This document shows positions 22,557 through 34,702 of a stretch of DNA of 64,000 nucleotides, in pieces. The DNA is from Deltaproteobacteria bacterium (lineage in GTDB: Bacteria > Desulfobacterota > DSM-4660 > Desulfatiglandales > Desulfatiglandaceae): NCBI GenBank assembly GCA_019307945.1, contig JAFDIS010000008.1, positions 1-64,000 of the forward strand, given 5' to 3'. The notes under the pieces are model-generated. The model worked only from the letters and a program-made list of their open reading frames with translations, was not told the origin of the DNA and made no database searches. How positions within the stretch are numbered: the first letter of the stretch is position 1; each line of letters starts with the position of its first letter. The position numbers and the translations under genes are program-made.

Positions 22557-23744
22557 CTATTCAACGCCACCCACGGCCTTGGATACATTCCAGGCCGCTT
22601 CCGTGTACTTGAACTGGGACGTGGTCCGGTAGGTGTCATACGCCAGCCGGTAGTCGTCGATCAGATGCTCCGTGAAGGGAAGCCCGCATTTCTCAAAGAA
22701 CTTCTCCCATCCGATACGCTCGGCCCAGTCGCCCAAACGTTCATACTTGTTGGCGCCTTCGGCATAGGCCTCGATGATCCTGCGCACCGATTCGCACACT
22801 TCCGGAAACCTGGGGAAGTTGTTGGGCAAGGCCGGTATGATCACCTTGGAGAATTTAGGGGGGCTGATCCTGTTGGACACCTTGCCGCCCGCCATGACGG
22901 TAACGCAGTCGCCCTCTTTGTCCGAAAGGGGCAGCGCCATGCACATGGTATAGCAGTTTCCGCAGAACATGCAGCGTTCTTCCTTGATCTTGACGCTCTT
23001 CTTCCCGGATTCCGTCTTGGTGGGCGAAATGGCCGCCGTCGGGCACGCCGCGATGACCAGCGGGATTTCACAGACCGATTCCATCACCTCGTTGTCCACG
23101 ATGGGGGGCTTGCGGTGATAACCCAGCAGGGCGATGTCCGAACAATGCACCGCGCCGCACATGTTGAGGCAACAGGCCATGGAGACCCGCAGCTGGGCGG
23201 GCAGGGTCATGCCCTGAAAATAGTCGAAGAGTTCGTCCATCACCGACTTGACCATGGAGGATGCGTCCGTGGCCGGTGTGTGGCAGTGGATGTAGCCCTG
23301 GGTGTGCACGATGTTGGTGACGCCTGCGCCCGTGCCGCCCAGGGGAAACTTGTAGCTCCCGCTCACGTGTTTGCGGCTTTGGAGGTCCTTCTTCAGGGCC
23401 TCCATCTTGTCCTGGCTGTCCACCATGAACTCGATGTTGTTCCGGGTGGTGAAACGCACGTAACCGTCACAATGCTTGTCGGCGATTTCACAGATCTCGC
23501 GCACATGTTCAACGGTCATGAAACGGCAGCCGCCCACGCGTATCGTGAAGACCTTGTCACCGGTTTCGGAGACGTGGACCAGGACACCCGGCTCCAGGAT
23601 CTCATGGTATTTCCATTTGCCGTAGTTGTTCTGGATAATAGGCGGAAAATACTGCCAAAAATGTCTCGGACCCAAATCCGTGATCCGATTTTCCATGGGT
23701 TTTTCAGGATTATAAAGACCCAACCTCTCAGTCGATAGTCCCAT
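22557..23744 (-). CDS. dsrB: dissimilatory sulfite reductase beta subunit
   Basis: DsrB carries the catalytic sirohaem-[4Fe-4S] site of the DsrAB heterotetramer that reduces sulfite in the cytoplasm. The cysteine cluster near [13 protein letters not shown] and the inserted ferredoxin domain (CPTAAISP, then [11 protein letters not shown]) are present in the 395-residue protein. AGGAGG precedes the ATG. It is 18 bp behind dsrA and 32 bp ahead of dsrD. No missing residue is evident. Confidence 0.97.
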
Positions 23745-23762
23745 TCTGCGTACCTCCTATCT

Positions 23763-25184
23763 CTATCTCGCGTGTCTGGCACGGTAGTCTTCGATCTTCC
23801 TCTTCCATCCGCCGGGCACATCTTCTTCTTTCCAGAAGATGTAGGGGTTGGACCGGGGCTCTTTCACCATCTGCGGCATGGGTGGAATATTCAATACCTC
23901 AAGCAACTTAGAAACACCCTGCCGTTGAATCAACTCGCCCAGACGCTCACGGTTCTTGCCCTCTTCCATCCACCAATCCCACAGTGGCTCGATAACGTTC
24001 TCCTTGATGTTGTCGTAAGGAGGCTCACATTTCATGAACGGGATGGTCAACAGGGACATCTGGGCACCCTCGAGGATCGGAGCCTTGGCCCCGAAAAGGA
24101 TACTCACGCCCGTGTCTTCACCCGGCCTGAGGGCCCGGGGCATCACGTTGATACAGTGCATGCAGCGGGTACATTCTTTGTTGTCGATCATGAGTTTGCC
24201 GTCTTCCAACCACATACACTTGGTCGGGCACAAATCGATGACTTCTTTCTGGATATCGAACGGGCCCCAGTCCCTGCCTTTGTGGGCGCCGCCGTTGGGT
24301 GCGATTTCACCGCCCATGTAGGCCTTGACCGCTTCCTGATCGATACGAATCTCGTCGCGCCAGGTCCCGATATAGGACATATCCGCACGTGCTATGGAGG
24401 CCACGCAACAATTGGGGCACCCGTCGAACTTGAATTTGAACTTGTAGGGAAACGCAGGCCTGTGAAGCTCGTCCTGATAGTAATGCGTCAACTCGTAGCA
24501 CATGTCTTGCGTATCTATACAGGACCACTCACAGCGGGCCCTGCCGATGCAGCAGGAGGGCGTACGCAGGTTGGACCCGGAGCCTCCCAGGTCCTGCTGA
24601 AGGATGTGGGTCAGATCGTAGAAAATGGGTTCCAGCTGCTCGGTGAATGTCCCCAGGAAGATGATGTCTCCCGTGGAACCGTGCATATTCATCATCCCGC
24701 TTCCCCGGTATTCCCAGAGGTCACAAAGAGACCGGAGATAATCCGTGTGGTAAAACTTGCTGGCGGGCTGGTTGACTCTCATGGTATGAAAATGCGCGAT
24801 GGAGGGGAACTTGTCGGGCAGGTCCGAATACCTGCCGATAACGCCGCCACCATACCCGAACACACCCACAATTCCGCCGTGCTTCCAGTGGGTTTCGCCG
24901 TCCTTGAAGGAGATTTGCAACTGGCCCAGCATGTCCTCGATGACGTCGCGCTCGATCAGCATTCTGTCATCGGCCAATTTCCTGCGGTGCAATGCGCCCC
25001 TCTTGGCGTCGGCGATGAAGCTCGGCCATGGTCCGGATTCCAGATCTTCCAGCATGGAGATATCATGCTTGACCTTGAAATTCTTGAGTTCCTCCTCGGT
25101 GTAGTTATTCAACTCCTCGTCGGAGTAGATCCTGAGCTCGTCGTATTTTAGCTCTTTTTGATCCTCTCTAGGTTCGAAAGCCAT
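23763..25184 (-). CDS. dsrA: dissimilatory sulfite reductase alpha subunit
   Basis: DsrA pairs with DsrB to reduce sulfite with electrons delivered through DsrC. The cofactor-binding region (TPSCCIGRARCEWSC and DGCPNCCVA) and the ferredoxin domain (LCPTKCMW, then CTRCMHC) are intact. The 473-residue protein has an acidic N-terminal extension of about 40 residues (YDELRIYSDEELNNYTEEEL) ahead of the usual LESGPWPSF start, longer than the forms I know. GAGGAGG precedes the ATG, so the extension is likely translated. It is the first gene of dsrABD, with a promoter at 25437-25466. Confidence 0.97.
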   Translation of the reverse strand: MAFEPREDQKELKYDELRIYSDEELNNYTEEELKNFKVKHDISMLEDLESGPWPSFIADAKRGALHRRKLADDRMLIERDVIEDMLGQLQISFKDGETHWKHGGIVGVFGYGGGVIGRYSDLPDKFPSIAHFHTMRVNQPASKFYHTDYLRSLCDLWEYRGSGMMNMHGSTGDIIFLGTFTEQLEPIFYDLTHILQQDLGGSGSNLRTPSCCIGRARCEWSCIDTQDMCYELTHYYQDELHRPAFPYKFKFKFDGCPNCCVASIARADMSYIGTWRDEIRIDQEAVKAYMGGEIAPNGGAHKGRDWGPFDIQKEVIDLCPTKCMWLEDGKLMIDNKECTRCMHCINVMPRALRPGEDTGVSILFGAKAPILEGAQMSLLTIPFMKCEPPYDNIKENVIEPLWDWWMEEGKNRERLGELIQRQGVSKLLEVLNIPPMPQMVKEPRSNPYIFWKEEDVPGGWKRKIEDYRARHAR

Positions 25185-27221: not shown

Positions 27222-27539
27222 ATGCCGACGGTAGAGTTTGAAGGCGAGACCTTTAACGTTGATGAAGACGGTTTCATCGATGACTTCAACAACTGGAACG
27301 AGAAATGGGTCGCATATGTAAAGAGCACTGAGGGCATCGAGGAACTAACGGACGAACATTGGAAAGTGATCAATGTTCTCCAGGAATACTACAAGAAAAA
27401 CGGCATCGCCCCCATGGTGAGAATTCTGTCCAAGGTCACGGGCTACAAGCTGAAGTACATCTACGAACTGTTTCCATCGGGACCGGGGAAAGGTGCCTGC
27501 AAAATGGCCGGACTGCCCAAACCCACGGGGTGCGTGTAA
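27222..27539 (+). CDS. dsrC: DsrC, sulfur-trafficking co-substrate of sulfite reductase
   Basis: DsrC accepts the sulfur from DsrAB as a trisulfide between its two conserved cysteines, which the membrane complex DsrMKJOP then reduces. This 105-residue protein has both: Cys93 (ACKMAG) and the penultimate Cys104 (TGCV), eleven residues apart as in functional DsrC rather than in TusE, which keeps only one. A very strong ribosome site (AAGGAGGAGG) precedes the ATG. The gene has its own promoter and terminator, fitting the high level of DsrC in cells. Confidence 0.97.
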   Translation: MPTVEFEGETFNVDEDGFIDDFNNWNEKWVAYVKSTEGIEELTDEHWKVINVLQEYYKKNGIAPMVRILSKVTGYKLKYIYELFPSGPGKGACKMAGLPKPTGCV

Positions 27540-27607: not shown

Positions 27608-27641
27608 GGGCGCAGGGGATAAGAGTCTCCTGCGCCCTTTT
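27608..27641 (+). terminator. intrinsic terminator of dsrC
   Basis: GGGCGCAGG (27608-27616) and CCTGCGCCC (27629-27637) form a 9-bp stem with a 12-base loop, followed by TTTT. It ends at the stop codon of the convergent hydrolase gene. Confidence 0.85.
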
Positions 27642-28476
27642 ATTGGGACCGCCTGCGTCTGCAGAGCGGGCCGTACAATTCGGGGCTTCGGCCACCCAGG
27701 AAGTAACGCATGGGATGCCGCCTCAGGCGGGAAACCCGCAGGGGATCCACATCCACCATGAGAATGTGGTCCTCCTCTGCGGCGTAACTGCCCACGACCC
27801 GTCCATCCGGATCCACCGCCACGGCCACAGCGGGGAATGAGAGCCCTTCGGCCGTCTCACCGGCCTGATTGCAGGCCACGGCATAGGCCGTATTGTCGAA
27901 GGCCCTGGCGGGCAGGTGCCGGAGCCAGCTTGAAAGTTTCTCCTCAGGGGTTCCGCGGGGTGAGGCATGAGGGAAGAGGAGGAGGGTGGCGCCTTTGAGG
28001 GCCATCAACGTGCTGATCTCAGGAAAGTGGGCTTCCCAGCAAAGTTGCATCCCGAAAACGATTCCCCGGTACGAATGGACCTCCAAGGCCTTCCCGGGCG
28101 TGTACGCATCCGACTCAGGGGGTGACAGATGGGTCTTGCGATGAAGGCCCAGCAAGCCGCCCGGTCCCGCCGCCAGGTGGGTGATGTAGGGCCGGCCTTC
28201 CCGTGATCTTTCCGCATAACCGGCCAGGATCGCAAGGTTCCATCGCCTTGCCATCCCTGCCAGCCTTTCAGCCACCCGGCCCCGATGGGCGGCCCTGGCC
28301 AAATCTTTCGCCCGCCTCAGACTGTAACCGGTCACACAGAGTTCGGGAAAGCAGAGAAGTTCGGCCCCTCGCCGGGAACCTTCTTCCACAAGGGACTCCA
28401 TCCGGCCCAGGTTCTCCTCCACCGATTCCAGGGTGGAGCGCATGCACACGGCCCCGACTCTCAATACAATCTCCAA
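27640..28476 (-). CDS. carbon-nitrogen hydrolase (nitrilase superfamily)
   Basis: The 278-residue enzyme has the full catalytic triad of the nitrilase superfamily: Glu in FPELCVTGY (about 45), Lys in LHRKTHL (about 114) and Cys in MQLCWEAHFPE (about 146). These hydrolyse amides or nitriles; the exact substrate cannot be read. It overlaps the end of leuD by 16 bp on the same strand, so it is the last gene of the cimA-leu cluster. Why a C-N hydrolase is coupled to leucine synthesis is unclear. Confidence 0.88.
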   Translation of the reverse strand: MEIVLRVGAVCMRSTLESVEENLGRMESLVEEGSRRGAELLCFPELCVTGYSLRRAKDLARAAHRGRVAERLAGMARRWNLAILAGYAERSREGRPYITHLAAGPGGLLGLHRKTHLSPPESDAYTPGKALEVHSYRGIVFGMQLCWEAHFPEISTLMALKGATLLLFPHASPRGTPEEKLSSWLRHLPARAFDNTAYAVACNQAGETAEGLSFPAVAVAVDPDGRVVGSYAAEEDHILMVDVDPLRVSRLRRHPMRYFLGGRSPELYGPLCRRRRSQ

Positions 28477-28982
28477 TTCCCTTCGGCACGCGCACGGCCC
28501 TTGACATAGGGCACCAGTCCCCCGGCACGAATGATTTCGCGCATGAACGGAGGGATCGGCCTCACGCGGTAGCTCCTGCCTGATTCCAGATCCCGTAGAC
28601 GTCCCGACTCCAGGGAGACCGACACACGGATCCGGTCCCGGAGCCCTTCCAGGGGCTCCTCGGCTTCAAGGGCGGGGAGACCGATATTAAAGGCGTTTCG
28701 ATAAAAAATCCTCGCATAGCTCTGCGCCACGATGAGGCGGATCCCTGAAGCCTTGATGGCCAGGGGGGCATGTTCCCGGGAAGAACCGCACCCGAAATTC
28801 GTCCCTGCCACCAGGATGTCTCCCTGCTTCACTTCCTCGGCAAAATCGGGGCGCAATTCGGAAAAGCAGTGTCCTGCGAGTATGGTCTCATCCGATTCGT
28901 TGAGGAACCTTGCGGGGATGATCAGATCCGTGTCCACGTTGTCCCCGAATTTCCAAACCCTGCCCTCATAATCCATGCTCAA
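28461..28982 (-). CDS. leuD: 3-isopropylmalate dehydratase small subunit
   Basis: LeuD is the swivelling-domain subunit that, with LeuC, isomerises 2-isopropylmalate to 3-isopropylmalate. The 173-residue sequence shows NVDTDLIIPARFL (about 15-27) and NFGCGSSREHAP (about 62-73). It may also act on citramalate for isoleucine synthesis, since cimA is in the same cluster. It lies 126 bp behind leuC. Confidence 0.95.
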   Translation of the reverse strand: MSMDYEGRVWKFGDNVDTDLIIPARFLNESDETILAGHCFSELRPDFAEEVKQGDILVAGTNFGCGSSREHAPLAIKASGIRLIVAQSYARIFYRNAFNIGLPALEAEEPLEGLRDRIRVSVSLESGRLRDLESGRSYRVRPIPPFMREIIRAGGLVPYVKGRARAEGNWRLY

Positions 28983-29108: not shown

Positions 29109-30383
29109 TCAAAGCTCCGCCGGGGAACCTATGCGTCCAAGGACCGCCGATGCCGCCGCCACGGCCGGGTTGGCAAGATAAACACGGCTTTCGGTATGCC
29201 CCATCCGCCCCACAAAGTTGCGGTTCGTGGTGGAAAGGGCGGTCTCTCCCCGGCCCAGTACTCCCATATGCCCTCCCAGGCAGGGCCCGCAGCAGGGAGG
29301 ACCCAAAACCGCCCCCGCCTTCAGAAAGCCTTCCACCATACCCTCCCGCACCGCTTCGAGATACACCCTGGGGGAACCCGGGATCATGATGAGACGGGTG
29401 CCGCGGGCCACCTTCCTATCCTTGAGCACCTCAAACGCTTCACGAAGATCCCCCAGGCGCCCGTTGGTGCAGGAACCGATGAATACCTGATCCAGCCTCA
29501 CGGGATCCACGGCGGAGATGGGAGCCACGTTGTCCGGGGAGTTGGGAAGCGCCACCTGCGGCTCCATGTCGCTCACGTCAAAGTGTTCCACTCTCAGGTA
29601 TCGGGCCTCGTCATCGCTCTTGAAAAGTTCGCCTGACCGCGAAGCGTGCTCCCGTACATAATCCCGGGCAACCGCGTCGGCGTGGAAGATACCGTTCTTG
29701 GCCCCCGCCTCCACGGCCATGTTGGCCATGGTGAAGCGGTGGTGCATGGGAAGTCCCTCAAGTGCTCCGCCACGAAACTCCAGGGCCTTGTAGGAGGCGC
29801 CGTCCACTCCGAGGCGCCCGATGACCGAAAGGATGTAATCCTTGCCGCCCACCCACCGGGGTCTTTGTCCTTCGAAGACCAGCAGAATCGTCTCCGGGAC
29901 CCTGAGCCAGGTTTTCCCCGTGGCCCATATCACCCCCAGATCCGTGCTCCCGACCCCCGCCGCGAAGGCCCCCAGGGCCCCATAGGTACAGGTGTGGCTG
30001 TCCGCACCGATCACAAGGTCCCCCGGAACCACCAGTCCCCGTTCCGGCAGGATCACATGCTCGATGCCCGCCTCACCCAGGTCGAAATAATGGCTGATCC
30101 CCAGGGCCTCGGCAAATTCGGCCATCATCTTGACCTGGGCCGCACTTGCAATGTCCTTGTTGGGAACAAAGTGATCCTGAACCAGGACCACCTTTTCAGG
30201 GTCGAAGACACGCTCTGCTTCCAACTCATGAAAGACGCGGATGGCCAGGGGCGCCGTGATGTCATTGGCAAGGGCCAGGTCCACCTCCACCTCCACGAGA
30301 TCACCGGGCCGTACGCTCCTGTTTCCCGCGTGGCGAGCCAGGATCTTTTCCGTGATGGTCATGGGTAACGCATGTCGCTCCAT
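29109..30383 (-). CDS. leuC: 3-isopropylmalate dehydratase large subunit
   Basis: LeuC (424 residues) holds the [4Fe-4S] cluster of isopropylmalate isomerase. It shows VIGADSHTCTYGA, the cluster cysteines in FIGSCTNGR and GPPCCGPCLGG, and the C-terminal NRNFVGRMGH typical of the family. An in-frame Met eight codons in (MTITEKILARH) matches the usual LeuC start and is a good alternative. It lies downstream of leuA and upstream of leuD. Confidence 0.96.
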   Translation of the reverse strand: MERHALPMTITEKILARHAGNRSVRPGDLVEVEVDLALANDITAPLAIRVFHELEAERVFDPEKVVLVQDHFVPNKDIASAAQVKMMAEFAEALGISHYFDLGEAGIEHVILPERGLVVPGDLVIGADSHTCTYGALGAFAAGVGSTDLGVIWATGKTWLRVPETILLVFEGQRPRWVGGKDYILSVIGRLGVDGASYKALEFRGGALEGLPMHHRFTMANMAVEAGAKNGIFHADAVARDYVREHASRSGELFKSDDEARYLRVEHFDVSDMEPQVALPNSPDNVAPISAVDPVRLDQVFIGSCTNGRLGDLREAFEVLKDRKVARGTRLIMIPGSPRVYLEAVREGMVEGFLKAGAVLGPPCCGPCLGGHMGVLGRGETALSTTNRNFVGRMGHTESRVYLANPAVAAASAVLGRIGSPAEL

Positions 30384-30437: not shown

Positions 30438-31979
30438 TCACAAGGTGATCTCTCCCGTCCGAGATGGGTTTCGCTTCATGTATTCGATCCGGTTGAGGCC
30501 GTTGACGAATGCCTTGGCGCTGGCCGTGATGATGTCGGGATCCGCCCCGCGCCCCAGGGCCACGAGGCCGTTTTCCTGGAGTCTCACCGTCACCTCACCC
30601 TGGGCGTCCATGCCGCCGCTGATGGCATTTACCGAGAAACGAAGCAGCCTGGATCGACTCCCGGCCAACTTGGCGATGGTATTGAACGTGGCATCGATGG
30701 GCCCGATCCCGAAGCCCGCTCCCTGCCGTTCCTCTCCCCTGACCCTCAGCTTGACCGTGGCCGTGGGCACCGCCACGGTCCCGCTCACCACGTTGAGGTA
30801 ATCCAGCTCGAACTGGTCCGGGCAGCGCAGGATCTCCTCGGCCACGAGCACCTCGATATCCTCGTCCAGGATCTCCTTCCTCTTGTCGGCCAGTTCCTTG
30901 AAGCGTTTGAAGAGGCGGTTGAGTTCCTTTTCGGTAAGGTCGTAACCCAGTTCCTCGAGCCGCCGCTTCAAGGCATGCCGCCCCGAGTGCTTGCCCAGGA
31001 CCAGGCTGTTGCTGGTCAGGCCCACCATTTCGGGTTCCATGATCTCATAGGTCATCTTGTTCTTCAAGACACCGTCCTGATGAATCCCCGCTTCATGGGC
31101 GAAAGCATTGGCCCCCACGACAGCCTTGTTGGGCTGGACTACGATCCCGGTCACGGTTTTCACCAGACGGCTGGTGGGGTGTATCTCGGCGGTCCGGATC
31201 CCGGTGTGCAGGCCCATGATGTCCCTGCGCGTGTGGAGACTCATGGCCACTTCTTCCAATGCCGTGTTTCCCGCCCGCTCACCGATCCCGTTCATGGTCA
31301 CCTCCACCTGCCGGGCCCCCGCCTTGAGACCTGCCAGGGTGTTCGCCGTGGCGAGCCCCAAATCGTTGTGGCAGTGCACGCTCAACACGGCGCGGCCGAT
31401 GCCGGGGGTCTTTTTCCGCACGTAACGGACGAGTTCCTCGAACTCGTCGGGCAGGGCATACCCCACCGTGTCGGGGAGATTCACCGTCGTGGCCCCGGCT
31501 TCCACCGCGGCCCCGAACACGCGGCACAGAAAATCTCTGTCGCTTCGGCTCCCGTCTTCTGCAGAGAACTCCACGTTTTCGGTGAATTGCTTGGCGTAGC
31601 GCACCGCCTCCGCCGCCTCCCGGAGCACCTCCTCCCGCGTCATGCGCAGTTTGTGTTCCAGGTGAATGTCCGATGTGGCTATGAAGACATGGATCCTAGG
31701 ATCCTGCGCTTCTTTGACGGCGCTCCAGGCCGCGTCGATATCCTCTTTCGACGTCCTGGCCAGGGCGGCCACTTCAAGGCGCCTCACCTTCTCAGCAATT
31801 GATCTTACGGCCTCCAGGTCGCCCGGGGATGACGCCGGAAAACCCGCTTCCAGCACGTCCACGCCCAGTTTTTCCAGTTGCACGGCCAGCCTCAGTTTCT
31901 CCTGCGCGTTCATGCCGGCCCCGGGGGACTGCTCACCGTCACGCAGGGTCGTATCGAAAATAATAACACGATCTTCCAT
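30438..31979 (-). CDS. leuA: 2-isopropylmalate synthase
   Basis: LeuA condenses acetyl-CoA with 2-ketoisovalerate, the first step to leucine. The DRE-TIM barrel has DTTLRDGEQSPGAG (9-22), the metal-binding HCHNDLG and the GIGERAGNT segment. A communication region and a complete C-terminal allosteric LeuA dimer domain (from about residue 390) follow, so feedback inhibition by leucine is expected. The 513-residue length is normal. Two intercistronic hairpins lie between cimA and this gene. GGAGAAG precedes the ATG. Confidence 0.96.
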   Translation of the reverse strand: MEDRVIIFDTTLRDGEQSPGAGMNAQEKLRLAVQLEKLGVDVLEAGFPASSPGDLEAVRSIAEKVRRLEVAALARTSKEDIDAAWSAVKEAQDPRIHVFIATSDIHLEHKLRMTREEVLREAAEAVRYAKQFTENVEFSAEDGSRSDRDFLCRVFGAAVEAGATTVNLPDTVGYALPDEFEELVRYVRKKTPGIGRAVLSVHCHNDLGLATANTLAGLKAGARQVEVTMNGIGERAGNTALEEVAMSLHTRRDIMGLHTGIRTAEIHPTSRLVKTVTGIVVQPNKAVVGANAFAHEAGIHQDGVLKNKMTYEIMEPEMVGLTSNSLVLGKHSGRHALKRRLEELGYDLTEKELNRLFKRFKELADKRKEILDEDIEVLVAEEILRCPDQFELDYLNVVSGTVAVPTATVKLRVRGEERQGAGFGIGPIDATFNTIAKLAGSRSRLLRFSVNAISGGMDAQGEVTVRLQENGLVALGRGADPDIITASAKAFVNGLNRIEYMKRNPSRTGEITL

Positions 31980-32134: not shown

Positions 32135-33709
32135 TCAACATCTCTTTGTTTCCTTCGACAGTTTGTACTGCACGCTGTCGGCCAATGCCTGCCAACTGGC
32201 CTCGATGATGTTCTCCGAAACGCCGATGGTCGACCAGATCTCCTTTGAATCTCGCGATTCGATCCGAACCCGCACCTTGGCCGCCGTACCGTCCCGTCCA
32301 TCTATGACCCGCACCTTGAAATCCACCAGACGCATCTCTTCCACCTCGGGATAGAACTTGGCCAGGGCCTTCCTCAGGGCGTTGTCCAGGGCGTTGACCG
32401 GCCCTTCTCCTTCCGCTGCGGTGATTTCTTGGTCCCCACCCACGGAGATCTTTATGGTCACCTGGGAGGTACTGGCTCCGGCCCGGTTCTTTTCGATGTT
32501 CACCCGAAATGATTCAAGGGTGAAAGGATCCTCGAACTGCCCCGTCACCTTCTTGATCAAGAGATCCAGGGAGCCTTCAGCCGCCTCGAACTGGTAGCCT
32601 GCGTCCTCCAGTTCCTTGATTCGGTTTACGATCTTCTGGCTGTCGTATCCGTTTCCCCCGAGCCTGATCCCCAGTTCTCGAGTCTTGTATTCAATGTTGC
32701 TTCTCCCGGCCAAGTCGGAGACGAGGACCCTGCGGCGATTTCCCACCACCTCGGGTGCCAGGTGTTCGTAGGCCCGGGGGTTCTTCATGATGGCGCTCAC
32801 ATGAACCCCCCCCTTGTGGGCGAAAGCGCTCTTGCCCACAAAGGGCCGCTGGTTGTGCGGCGGGATGTTGGCCACCTCGCTCACGAACCTGGAAAGTTCC
32901 GTCATCTGTCGAATCCGGTCCTCGGGCACGCAGGGCACACCCAACTTGAGCTGGAGGTTTCCCACCACGGCCAGCAGATCCACGTTACCGCACCGCTCTC
33001 CATACCCGTTGATGGTCCCCTGAACCATCCGCGCCCCGGCCTTTACGGCCGCAAGGCTGTTGGCCAGGGCCAGGCCGCAATCGTCATGGGCGTGGATTCC
33101 CACGTCCACGGTCAGACGCGAGACCAACCCCTCCACGACTTCACGCACTTCATCGGGCATGGCACCTCCGTTCGTGTCACACAACACCACCAGATCCGCG
33201 CCTGCCTCTGCGGCAGTCTCCACGGTTCTCACCGCGTAGTCCGGATTTTCCTTGAACCCGTCGAAGAAATGCTCCGCGTCATAGATCACGCGCTTCCCGC
33301 ATCTCTTTAGATAGGACACCGAGTCGCGGATCATGGCTGCGTTCTCTTCCAGGGAGACCTCCAGGATCTCCGTGGCGTGAAGCTCCCAGCTCTTGCCGAA
33401 CAGCGTGACCGTGTCCGTTCCCGCCTCCAGGAGGGCCCTCATGTTTTCATCCTCCTCGGGCCTCGTCCCGGCTCTGCGCGTGCTCCCAAAGGCCGTGATG
33501 CGCGCGTTCTTAAAGGCCACTTCCGCCGCCATGGAGAAAAAACGTTCATCCTTCGGGCTGGCCCCGGGCCAACCTCCCTCCACGTAGTGAATGCCGAAAT
33601 CGTCCAGCTTTCCGGCGATACGCAGTTTGTCCTCAGCCGAAAGGTTGACCTGTTCCCCTTGGGTGCCGTCTCGAAGCGTGGTGTCGTAAAGTATGATCCC
33701 GTTTCCCAT
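32135..33709 (-). CDS. cimA: citramalate synthase
   Basis: CimA makes citramalate from pyruvate and acetyl-CoA, the threonine-independent route to isoleucine. The 524-residue protein begins with a DRE-TIM barrel (YDTTLRDGTQGEQV, 8-21), has HAHDDCGLALAN and NGYGERCGNVD, and ends in a LeuA-like dimer domain. The features EGGWPGASPKD and ERCGNVDL separate CimA from LeuA. It is the first gene of the cimA-leuA-leuC-leuD cluster. An intrinsic terminator ends only 15 bases before its ATG, part of the attenuator described separately. Confidence 0.95.
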   Translation of the reverse strand: MGNGIILYDTTLRDGTQGEQVNLSAEDKLRIAGKLDDFGIHYVEGGWPGASPKDERFFSMAAEVAFKNARITAFGSTRRAGTRPEEDENMRALLEAGTDTVTLFGKSWELHATEILEVSLEENAAMIRDSVSYLKRCGKRVIYDAEHFFDGFKENPDYAVRTVETAAEAGADLVVLCDTNGGAMPDEVREVVEGLVSRLTVDVGIHAHDDCGLALANSLAAVKAGARMVQGTINGYGERCGNVDLLAVVGNLQLKLGVPCVPEDRIRQMTELSRFVSEVANIPPHNQRPFVGKSAFAHKGGVHVSAIMKNPRAYEHLAPEVVGNRRRVLVSDLAGRSNIEYKTRELGIRLGGNGYDSQKIVNRIKELEDAGYQFEAAEGSLDLLIKKVTGQFEDPFTLESFRVNIEKNRAGASTSQVTIKISVGGDQEITAAEGEGPVNALDNALRKALAKFYPEVEEMRLVDFKVRVIDGRDGTAAKVRVRIESRDSKEIWSTIGVSENIIEASWQALADSVQYKLSKETKRC

Positions 33710-33724
33710 GGCATTTCTCCGGTC

Positions 33725-33766
33725 AAAAAAATCCGTTATCAGGTCCCGGCCTGATAACGGATTTTT
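33725..33766 (-). terminator. attenuator terminator directly upstream of cimA
   Basis: AAAAATCCGTTATCAGG and its exact inverse CCTGATAACGGATTTTT (17-bp arms, 33750-33766 and 33727-33743) enclose a 6-base loop. The minus-strand transcript then runs through seven U residues. It lies inside the cimA leader, 15 bases before the start codon, so it can only act as a conditional terminator. Confidence 0.92.
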
Positions 33767-33807
33767 GAGGACTTATGCCGGACTCAACTCGCCATCATCA
33801 GACCGGG
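33745..33807 (-). promoter_or_regulatory. antiterminator pairing in the cimA leader
   Basis: The transcript segment CCCGGUCUGAUGAUGG (33807 to 33792) can pair with CCGUUAUCAGGCCGGG (33760 to 33745) over 16 consecutive positions, three of them G-U. The second segment is the first arm and loop of the terminator, so the two structures exclude each other. The first segment lies in the last codons of the leader peptide and would be covered by a ribosome reaching the stop codon. Confidence 0.8.
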
Positions 33808-33903
33808 CGCACGGGGCCGGAGCCCCAGGCCGAGGAGCAATAGGGGCAGAAGCGCCCCTATTGCGCTGATAATGCCGATCAAATCGAGTACCTTCAAATC
33901 CAT
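33784..33903 (-). CDS. 39-residue Leu/Ile-rich leader peptide of the cimA-leu cluster
   Basis: The short frame starts MDLKVLDLIGIISAIGALLP, continues LLLLGLGLRPR and ends before the terminator. It holds 12 leucines, 4 isoleucines and one valine in 39 codons, with nine Leu between codons 18 and 28. GGAAG lies about ten bases upstream of the ATG. It is a regulatory peptide by its position: promoter, then leader, then antiterminator, terminator and cimA. Slow translation at Leu or Ile codons would leave the antiterminator free. It belongs to no family I know; such peptides are recognised by composition and context only. Confidence 0.85.
   Translation of the reverse strand: MDLKVLDLIGIISAIGALLPLLLLGLGLRPRAPGLMMAS
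33837..33864 (-). promoter_or_regulatory. pause-type hairpin inside the leader peptide gene
   Basis: GCAATAGGGGC (33837-33847) and GCCCCTATTGC (33854-33864) are exact inverses with a 6-base loop. The hairpin covers codons 14-22 of the leader peptide, across the first Leu codons. In known attenuators a hairpin in this place makes polymerase wait for the ribosome. Confidence 0.75.
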
Positions 33904-33948
33904 CGAGTTGTGTCTTCCGTGGATTTTCTAAAATGATGTTATCAAAAA

Positions 33949-33978
33949 ATTTTATTCGGAAGCTGTTTTACGTGTCAA
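33949..33978 (-). promoter_or_regulatory. sigma-70 promoter of the cimA-leuACD cluster
   Basis: On the minus strand, TTGACA (complement of 33973-33978), an 18-bp spacer and TAAAAT (complement of 33949-33954, five of six). Transcription would start near 33942, about 40 bases before the leader peptide ATG. Confidence 0.75.
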
Positions 33979-34039
33979 GAAGTTTTTTCTCCTTTTCATG
34001 AACTCCTTGGCAAATCCTGAATAAGACAGGCCCGAACAT

Positions 34040-34702
34040 TCAGAAGATCCTGACTTCCCGGCAAGCCCCCCCGCCGAACCGGCTGACGGCTTCGCCCGCC
34101 AGCGCCAATCCGGTCTCCAGGTGCTGCGCGTCGATACCTGGTACGGCATAGGCGTAAAAAAGCACGTCTTGCGTCCTTTCGGTGACACGGGTCTTTTCAT
34201 CCGCACCCTGGCAGAGCACGCAGACGATTTCCTTCTCATCCCTCAGCACGATCTCCCCGGCGCGAGTGGTCATGGTCCGACCGCCCATGCCTTCGCAGGT
34301 CTCACTCCCCTCGGACACATCCAATGTGAGCCCGCCGTCGAACCGTTGGAAATCGGCTGCCGCCACCAGGATCCCGGCGCACATCTCGGCCATGAAATGG
34401 GCGTCCACCATGATGTTGTAGCGGGGAAAGCCGCTGTTCACGGTCCTCTTCAGATGGCCTGGAAGAGGGCAGGCATACCCGAACCCTCGAAAAAACCGAT
34501 CATAGACGCCTATGCGCGCCTCGATCTCGGCCAGGGTCGCACGGCTCCTCATGCGCCTGAGTTTCTTGCGCTTATACTGGTCGAACCCCGGGGGATTCAC
34601 GGGGTTCTGACAGCCCGTGACCAGGACGAAACCGAAGGGCACCTCCGGGTAACGTTCGCGGTAGGGGCGCGATTTGGAAAACCGCACGTCGGGCATCTCC
34701 AT
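34040..34702 (-). CDS. B3/B4 tRNA-binding domain protein
   Basis: The 220-residue protein resembles the free-standing B3/B4 domain family (COG3382), related to the editing domain of phenylalanyl-tRNA synthetase beta chain. Typical segments are NPVNPPGFDQYKRKKLRR, NIMVDAHFMAEMCAGILVA and DEKEIVCVLCQGADEK. Editing or deacylation of mischarged tRNA is an inference for the family. Its stop lies about 60 bp upstream of the cimA promoter on the same strand. It is divergent from suhB. Confidence 0.82.
   Translation of the reverse strand: MEMPDVRFSKSRPYRERYPEVPFGFVLVTGCQNPVNPPGFDQYKRKKLRRMRSRATLAEIEARIGVYDRFFRGFGYACPLPGHLKRTVNSGFPRYNIMVDAHFMAEMCAGILVAAADFQRFDGGLTLDVSEGSETCEGMGGRTMTTRAGEIVLRDEKEIVCVLCQGADEKTRVTERTQDVLFYAYAVPGIDAQHLETGLALAGEAVSRFGGGACREVRIF

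Follow-up and report, generated by a model that had tools for sequence, protein, structure and literature searches.

What controls transcription of cimA-leuACD in this genome, where a short reading frame rich in leucine and isoleucine codons and a strong terminator lie between the promoter and cimA? We propose that the operon is controlled by a ribosome-mediated transcription attenuator that responds to the supply of charged isoleucine and leucine tRNA, a reading to which we assign a probability of about 0.93. The parts of the element and their pairings, the extent to which these are conserved and covary, and the conservation of the reading frame were computed from the window, by which we mean the whole stretch of 64,000 nucleotides that was analyzed, and from related genomes.

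The four structural genes are all encoded on the minus strand. The genes for citramalate synthase (cimA, 32135-33709; TIGR00977, 741 bits, cut-off 450), 2-isopropylmalate synthase (leuA, 30438-31979; NF002086, 784 bits, cut-off 532) and the LEU2-type large subunit of 3-isopropylmalate dehydratase (leuC, 29109-30383; TIGR02083, 623 bits, cut-off 611) all exceed the NCBIfam equivalog cut-offs. The gene for the small subunit of the dehydratase (leuD, 28461-28982) exceeds a subfamily cut-off (TIGR02087, 201 bits, cut-off 109) and falls under the leuD equivalog cut-off (209.5 versus 245.9).

Parts and pairings of the cimA leader

The leader is also on the minus strand, and its coordinates are given here in the direction of transcription. 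It starts from a sigma-70-type promoter, TTGACA-18-TAAAAT (33978-33949), that matches the consensus at 11 of 12 bases; one such promoter was found in 2 kb, as compared to 0.5 expected. Of 31 cimA relatives, 30 have the -35 motif TTGAC ahead of the leader and 19 have a matching -10 motif. The leader peptide reading frame spans 39 codons plus TGA (33903-33784), is translated as MDLKVLDLIGIISAIGALLPLLLLGLGLRPRAPGLMMAS and contains 12 Leu, 4 Ile and 1 Val codons. Its ribosome-binding site is only a weak GGAAG located 10 nt 5' of the ATG, and clear conservation of this site was not observed in the relatives.

Four segments account for the alternative structures. Segment 1, GGCATTATCAG (33876-33866), contains the in-frame Ile codons ATT ATC and pairs with segment 2 in the minimum free energy (MFE) fold. 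Still within the leader peptide frame, sequence and folding reveal a perfect hairpin of 11 bp, GCAATAGGGGC-GCTTCT-GCCCCTATTGC (33864-33837), and a control block made up of Leu codons 18, 19, 21-24, 26 and 28 (33852-33820). Segment 2, the antiterminator strand CCCGGTCTGATGATGG (33807-33792), overlaps leader codons 33-38 and forms 16 pairs with segment 3; the leader stop codon is at 33786-33784. Segment 3 (33766-33745; CCGTTATCAGGCCGGG in the four-segment layout) includes both the 5' arm of the terminator (33766-33750) and the partner of the antiterminator strand (33760-33745). Segment 4 is the 3' arm of the terminator, CCTGATAACGGATTTTT (33742-33726; CCTGATAACGG in the four-segment layout), and completes the 3:4 helix. 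A run of seven T (33731-33725) marks the expected termination point, and the 17-bp terminator stem with this run (33766-33725) ends 15 nt before the start of cimA. The 2:3 duplex of 16 pairs has a calculated energy of -29.0 kcal/mol, which was equalled in 1 of 2000 dinucleotide shuffles, and the whole leader RNA folds with a z-score of -6.6 relative to shuffles. Segment 1 resembles segment 3, and segment 2 resembles segment 4.

The promoter, the 39-codon leader with its 12 Leu and 4 Ile codons, the 16-position antiterminator and the 17-bp terminator with seven T before cimA had all been described in the initial annotation, and each was confirmed at the positions listed above. That account claimed to contain all parts, and its boundaries agree with ours almost to the base, but it had missed segment 1, which completes a textbook 1:2 / 2:3 / 3:4 attenuator. 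The 11-bp hairpin, which it had interpreted as a pause hairpin, is indeed present; it may serve as such, although in this leader we would rather regard it as the inner portion of the 1:2 structure.

From this arrangement we infer translation of the leader in the cell, a response to amino acids, and termination itself. The leader peptide would be translated while the leader RNA is being synthesized. With ample amino acids, the ribosome would reach the stop codon and cover segment 2, the 3:4 helix would form and transcription would stop before cimA. If charged Ile or Leu tRNA is scarce, the ribosome would stall at the Ile codons in segment 1 or in the run of Leu codons just after it and disrupt 1:2, so that segment 2 would pair with segment 3, no terminator would form and the operon would be transcribed. 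If the leader is not translated at all, 1:2 should trap segment 2 and favour termination. Since the Ile codons are located within segment 1 itself, sensing of Ile would be built into the pairing alongside the sensing of Leu. The masking of segment 2 by a ribosome at the stop codon and its release upon stalling, as originally suggested for this locus, is supported by the geometry of the leader and by its conservation.

We folded the RNA in the state that precedes synthesis of segment 4, and assumed a ribosome footprint of approximately 31 nt. The 2:3 helix formed with the ribosome at Ile11, Ile12, Leu18, Leu21, Leu24 and Leu28, but not with the ribosome at the stop codon. In MFE folding of the full-length RNA, the terminator was the most stable structure in every ribosome state. 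Thus, the choice must be kinetic and fall while the RNA is being transcribed, as it does in known attenuators. When the truncated RNA of this one sequence was folded without a ribosome, 2:3 was more stable than 1:2, contrary to the proposed 1:2 trap.

Conservation of the helices and of the reading frame

The conservation of the helices was analyzed in an alignment of 35 elements from the order (A1). Helix 3:4 was 99.8% paired, helix 1:2 had 91.9% standard pairs and helix 2:3 was 91.4% paired, with changes on both sides at 4 pairs. The inner hairpin was 93.0% paired over the 9 pairs counted, 4 of which had changed on both sides. For helix 1:2, both-side changes were observed in 10 cells, as compared to 2.5 in shuffles, and none of 500 shuffles reached this number. 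More generally, the number of cells with both-side changes in each of 1:2, the inner hairpin, 2:3 and 3:4 was higher than in any of the 500 shuffles, and the pairing was lost when the partner was slid by 1-3 columns. Because the shuffles ignore the relatedness of the sequences, a swap test was added, using 24 elements nearly all of which come from different lineages. The mean energy was -20.2 kcal/mol when each leader was paired with its own terminator arm, as compared to -15.8 kcal/mol for swapped arms, and none of 20,000 permutations was as good.

Individual loci depart from the common pattern. At two of these (L039:2287-2426 and L048:1067-1223), segment 3 reads TTACCAG and is altered in step with segments 1 and 2, and segment 4 is unaltered, which leaves a mismatch in the terminator stem. 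At a third (L033:1182-1326, genome G014) the RNA segments are the same, but a different frame is used through segment 1 (CTGTTATCAGG), which there encodes Leu-Leu-Ser; judging from the sequence, the control codons appear to have switched from Ile to Leu with the RNA core kept.

Conserved terminators are common in the leaders of many operons, and the element could consist of an ordinary terminator, or of a terminator and antiterminator regulated by a small RNA, by a protein or by uncharged tRNA (T-box), and the short reading frame would then be present by chance. The strong conservation of the CCGTTATCAGG arms could in that case suggest a bound factor. We consider this explanation very improbable. 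Pairing with the in-frame Ile codons of segment 1 can account for the conserved arm sequence: these codons would fix segment 1, and the pairing would then fix segments 2, 3 and 4, which is why the terminator arms would be so conserved. In distant versions the arm sequence changes in step with the leader, and both the leader frame and its Ile, Leu and Val codons are conserved. Neither the T-box nor any other relevant Rfam family was matched: a search of 33600-34100 with the T-box covariance model gave no match at E-values up to 5, and a scan of the window and 14 related loci against Rfam 15 (cmscan) returned tRNAs and chance matches only, with no leader family. The T-box, riboswitches and known leader families were ruled out based on these absent Rfam matches.

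The attenuation model predicts a translated leader, and the alignment bears the marks of one. The leader frame is open in all 32 aligned cimA relatives, whereas stop codons interrupt the two alternative frames in 32 and 23 of them. Within the coding part, 33 of 35 aligned elements differ in length by multiples of three, whereas the spacer that follows the stop codon does not keep the frame. At the core Leu columns (alignment codons 16-18), Leu is encoded by 31, 30 and 31 of the 31 sequences, with codons that vary synonymously, and the end of the leader falls within or just 3' of segment 2. Taken together, the open frame, the multiple-of-three lengths and the synonymous Leu codons suggest that the leader is translated in the cell. 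The initial annotation had staked its interpretation on conservation of the leader frame and of the alternative stems in close relatives, and both are conserved.

A translated leader could also be a functional small membrane protein, with a terminator that merely limits transcription of the downstream operon. The 39-residue peptide is hydrophobic, its sequence (NIIVIISATGILxSLLLLLLVVRLK) is conserved, and the positive charge at its end is reminiscent of a membrane-spanning segment. However, the hydrophobic block varies with the downstream gene, being rich in Val before ilvB and in Leu before cimA and leuA, the end of the peptide overlaps the strand that covaries with the terminator, and the peptide sequence, unlike the RNA segments, is not retained in the distant homologues. 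A protein function for the leader is thus highly unlikely, and attenuation is the preferred reading of the conserved frame.

Distribution and downstream operons

To search for the element we used a covariance model (R1), which replaced a strict fixed-terminator pattern that had found only 12 of 395 genomes. Model R1 matches 71 of the 85 genomes of the order, representing 45 of 47 genera. In the genomes analyzed, the class is represented by this order alone, and a search of the whole class therefore yielded no further elements. No R1 match was obtained in the other 14 of the 85, many, though not all, of which are incomplete assemblies. Within the same family, cimA or one of its paralogues was matched in 44 of 46 genomes, and almost every complete cimA locus examined carries the element. 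Across the phylum, R1 matched 40 of 395 genomes at E <= 1e-4. Among the 25 matching genomes outside the order, 24 have the element before ilvD (13), cimA (10) or ilvB (2; one genome has both a cimA and an ilvB copy), and in one the match is at a contig end. The identity of ilvB and ilvD was confirmed on representatives using NCBIfam.

We examined 96 elements, of which approximately 67 are located before cimA (seven of these from outside the order or from named records), 11 before leuA, 6 before ilvB and 7 before a gene for an acyl-CoA dehydrogenase. Another two are placed in tandem before one 2-oxoacid oxidoreductase operon, and three have no assigned target. The placement before citramalate synthase claimed in the initial annotation is therefore correct but not unique to cimA, since a paralogue of the element precedes ilvB in this genome, and homologues of it precede leuA, ilvD and other operons.

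Some matches to the model were rejected. One (L253, G176:C61) is a plain terminator behind another gene, another (L199/L216, G443:C1:473497) has no branched-chain gene and was not accepted as an attenuator, and reverse-strand matches are shadows of the palindromic terminator.

The genome from which the window is taken carries a second copy (L127:1492-1661, minus strand; G000:C127:9617-9786) before ilvB (TIGR00118, 730 bits). The leader of this copy, MQRHDHIISIIGTIGRLVEVALLVVVCVVVGIPPGGLIM, contains 8 Val and 4 Leu, whereas that of cimA contains 12 Leu and a single Val. In each of the six genomes in which leaders of both kinds were compared, the ilvB leader had more Val codons than that of cimA or leuA, which suggests that the control codons follow the pathway, with Val used for acetolactate synthase and Leu for the leucine operon, and Ile present throughout.

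The acyl-CoA dehydrogenase targets are found in seven genomes of two families, and the dehydrogenase gene is followed by EtfB and then EtfA in the five loci with enough downstream sequence. The best NCBIfam matches in these operons are to acryloyl-CoA reductase subunits and an Etf subunit, all under the cut-offs. The tandem pair precedes an operon in genome G432 that encodes a VorB-type 2-oxoacid:ferredoxin oxidoreductase (NF005507, above cut-off). If these are real targets, a shortage of Ile or Leu would switch on the operons, which suggests a role in synthesis. The prediction is thus that certain acyl-CoA dehydrogenase-Etf and VorB-type operons are induced by Ile or Leu shortage and probably serve synthesis rather than breakdown.

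A broader scenario, which we put forward tentatively and at somewhat less than even odds, is that an ancient cassette of the phylum has been copied onto several operons, with a constant RNA core anchored by two Ile codons, whereas the codons located between segments 1 and 2 were retuned to Leu or Val according to the target. The acyl-CoA dehydrogenase-EtfBA and VorB-type operons, which are normally read as catabolic, would then work towards the synthesis of branched-chain amino acids; the reductive carboxylation of branched acyl-CoA is one way in which they could do so.

The acyl-CoA dehydrogenases preceded by the element are of two types, which are approximately 50% identical. They were observed at loci L210, L211, L212, L213, L214 and L217 (genomes G443, G003, G352, G441, G444 and G001, respectively) and at L177 (G442). 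The tandem elements (L215, G432:C13) are located at contig positions 6037-6200 and 5267-5430 on the minus strand, and their operon also encodes a P-loop-like protein of 245 aa without an NCBIfam match.

Relation to known attenuators and gene neighbourhood

The leu and ilv attenuators of enterobacteria have a leader rich in codons of the pathway, mutually exclusive 1:2, 2:3 and 3:4 helices and a terminator before the structural genes, and the attenuator of ilvGMEDA senses several amino acids. The new element is similar to those of leu, ilvGMEDA and ilvBN in its pathway-codon leader, its exclusive helices and its intrinsic terminator just before the genes. It differs in that cimA is the first gene, that Ile codons are located inside segment 1 and that one RNA core is found before several operons; no sequence relationship to the enterobacterial attenuators, which are listed in PMC1183508, was detected (no Rfam match).

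Leader reading frames with branched-chain codons have been described before ilvB in the ilvB-II motif of Corynebacterium and in the ilvB-OMG and Leptospira ilvB motifs, and ilvB-II has a strong terminator stem (PMC10272879). The new element shares with these three motifs an upstream reading frame rich in branched-chain codons before a branched-chain operon, but unlike it they have been described only before ilvB (PMC10272879). Leaders of the ilvB-OMG and Leptospira motifs contain many Thr codons as well (PMC10272879). In Actinobacteria, branched-chain leader reading frames precede ilvB and leuA (PMC1262725). The LEU element of this group resembles the new element in having a run of Leu codons upstream of leuA, but it contains a pseudoknot, its Leu codons pair with the Shine-Dalgarno box, and classical attenuation was judged unlikely there (PMC1262725).

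The mechanism that we propose is known, namely classical attenuation as in the trp, his, leu and ilv operons of enterobacteria (PMC1183508), whereas the RNA family is apparently undescribed by the Rfam test and occurs on branched-chain operons across the phylum. The initial annotation knew of no description for this lineage; our literature searches, which returned no cimA attenuator and no branched-chain attenuators in this phylum, are consistent with that claim but do not prove it. An earlier prediction in a large survey is possible, and Lopatovskaya 2010, cited in PMC4833913, is reportedly a large attenuator survey.

The element would extend classical attenuation to citramalate synthase and give little-studied sulfate reducers a readable circuit for amino-acid control. 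The RNA model marks branched-chain amino acid operons across the phylum and, because the leader names the amino acids that are sensed, the element can help to assign gene functions.

The genes surrounding the operon were also inspected. The end of leuD is overlapped by a gene for a nitrilase-family amidase (27640-28476, minus strand), with which the cimA-leuACD operon may close. Upstream of the attenuator, a gene for a protein of 220 aa (34040-34702, minus strand) has no convincing NCBIfam match. A gene of the DsrC/TusE family is located at 27222-27539 on the plus strand, and dsrA (560 bits) and a dsrB-like gene are located near the leucine operon, at 22665-25052 on the minus strand. Based on the latter two genes it is reasonable to consider the host a probable sulfate reducer, in support of the initial annotation.
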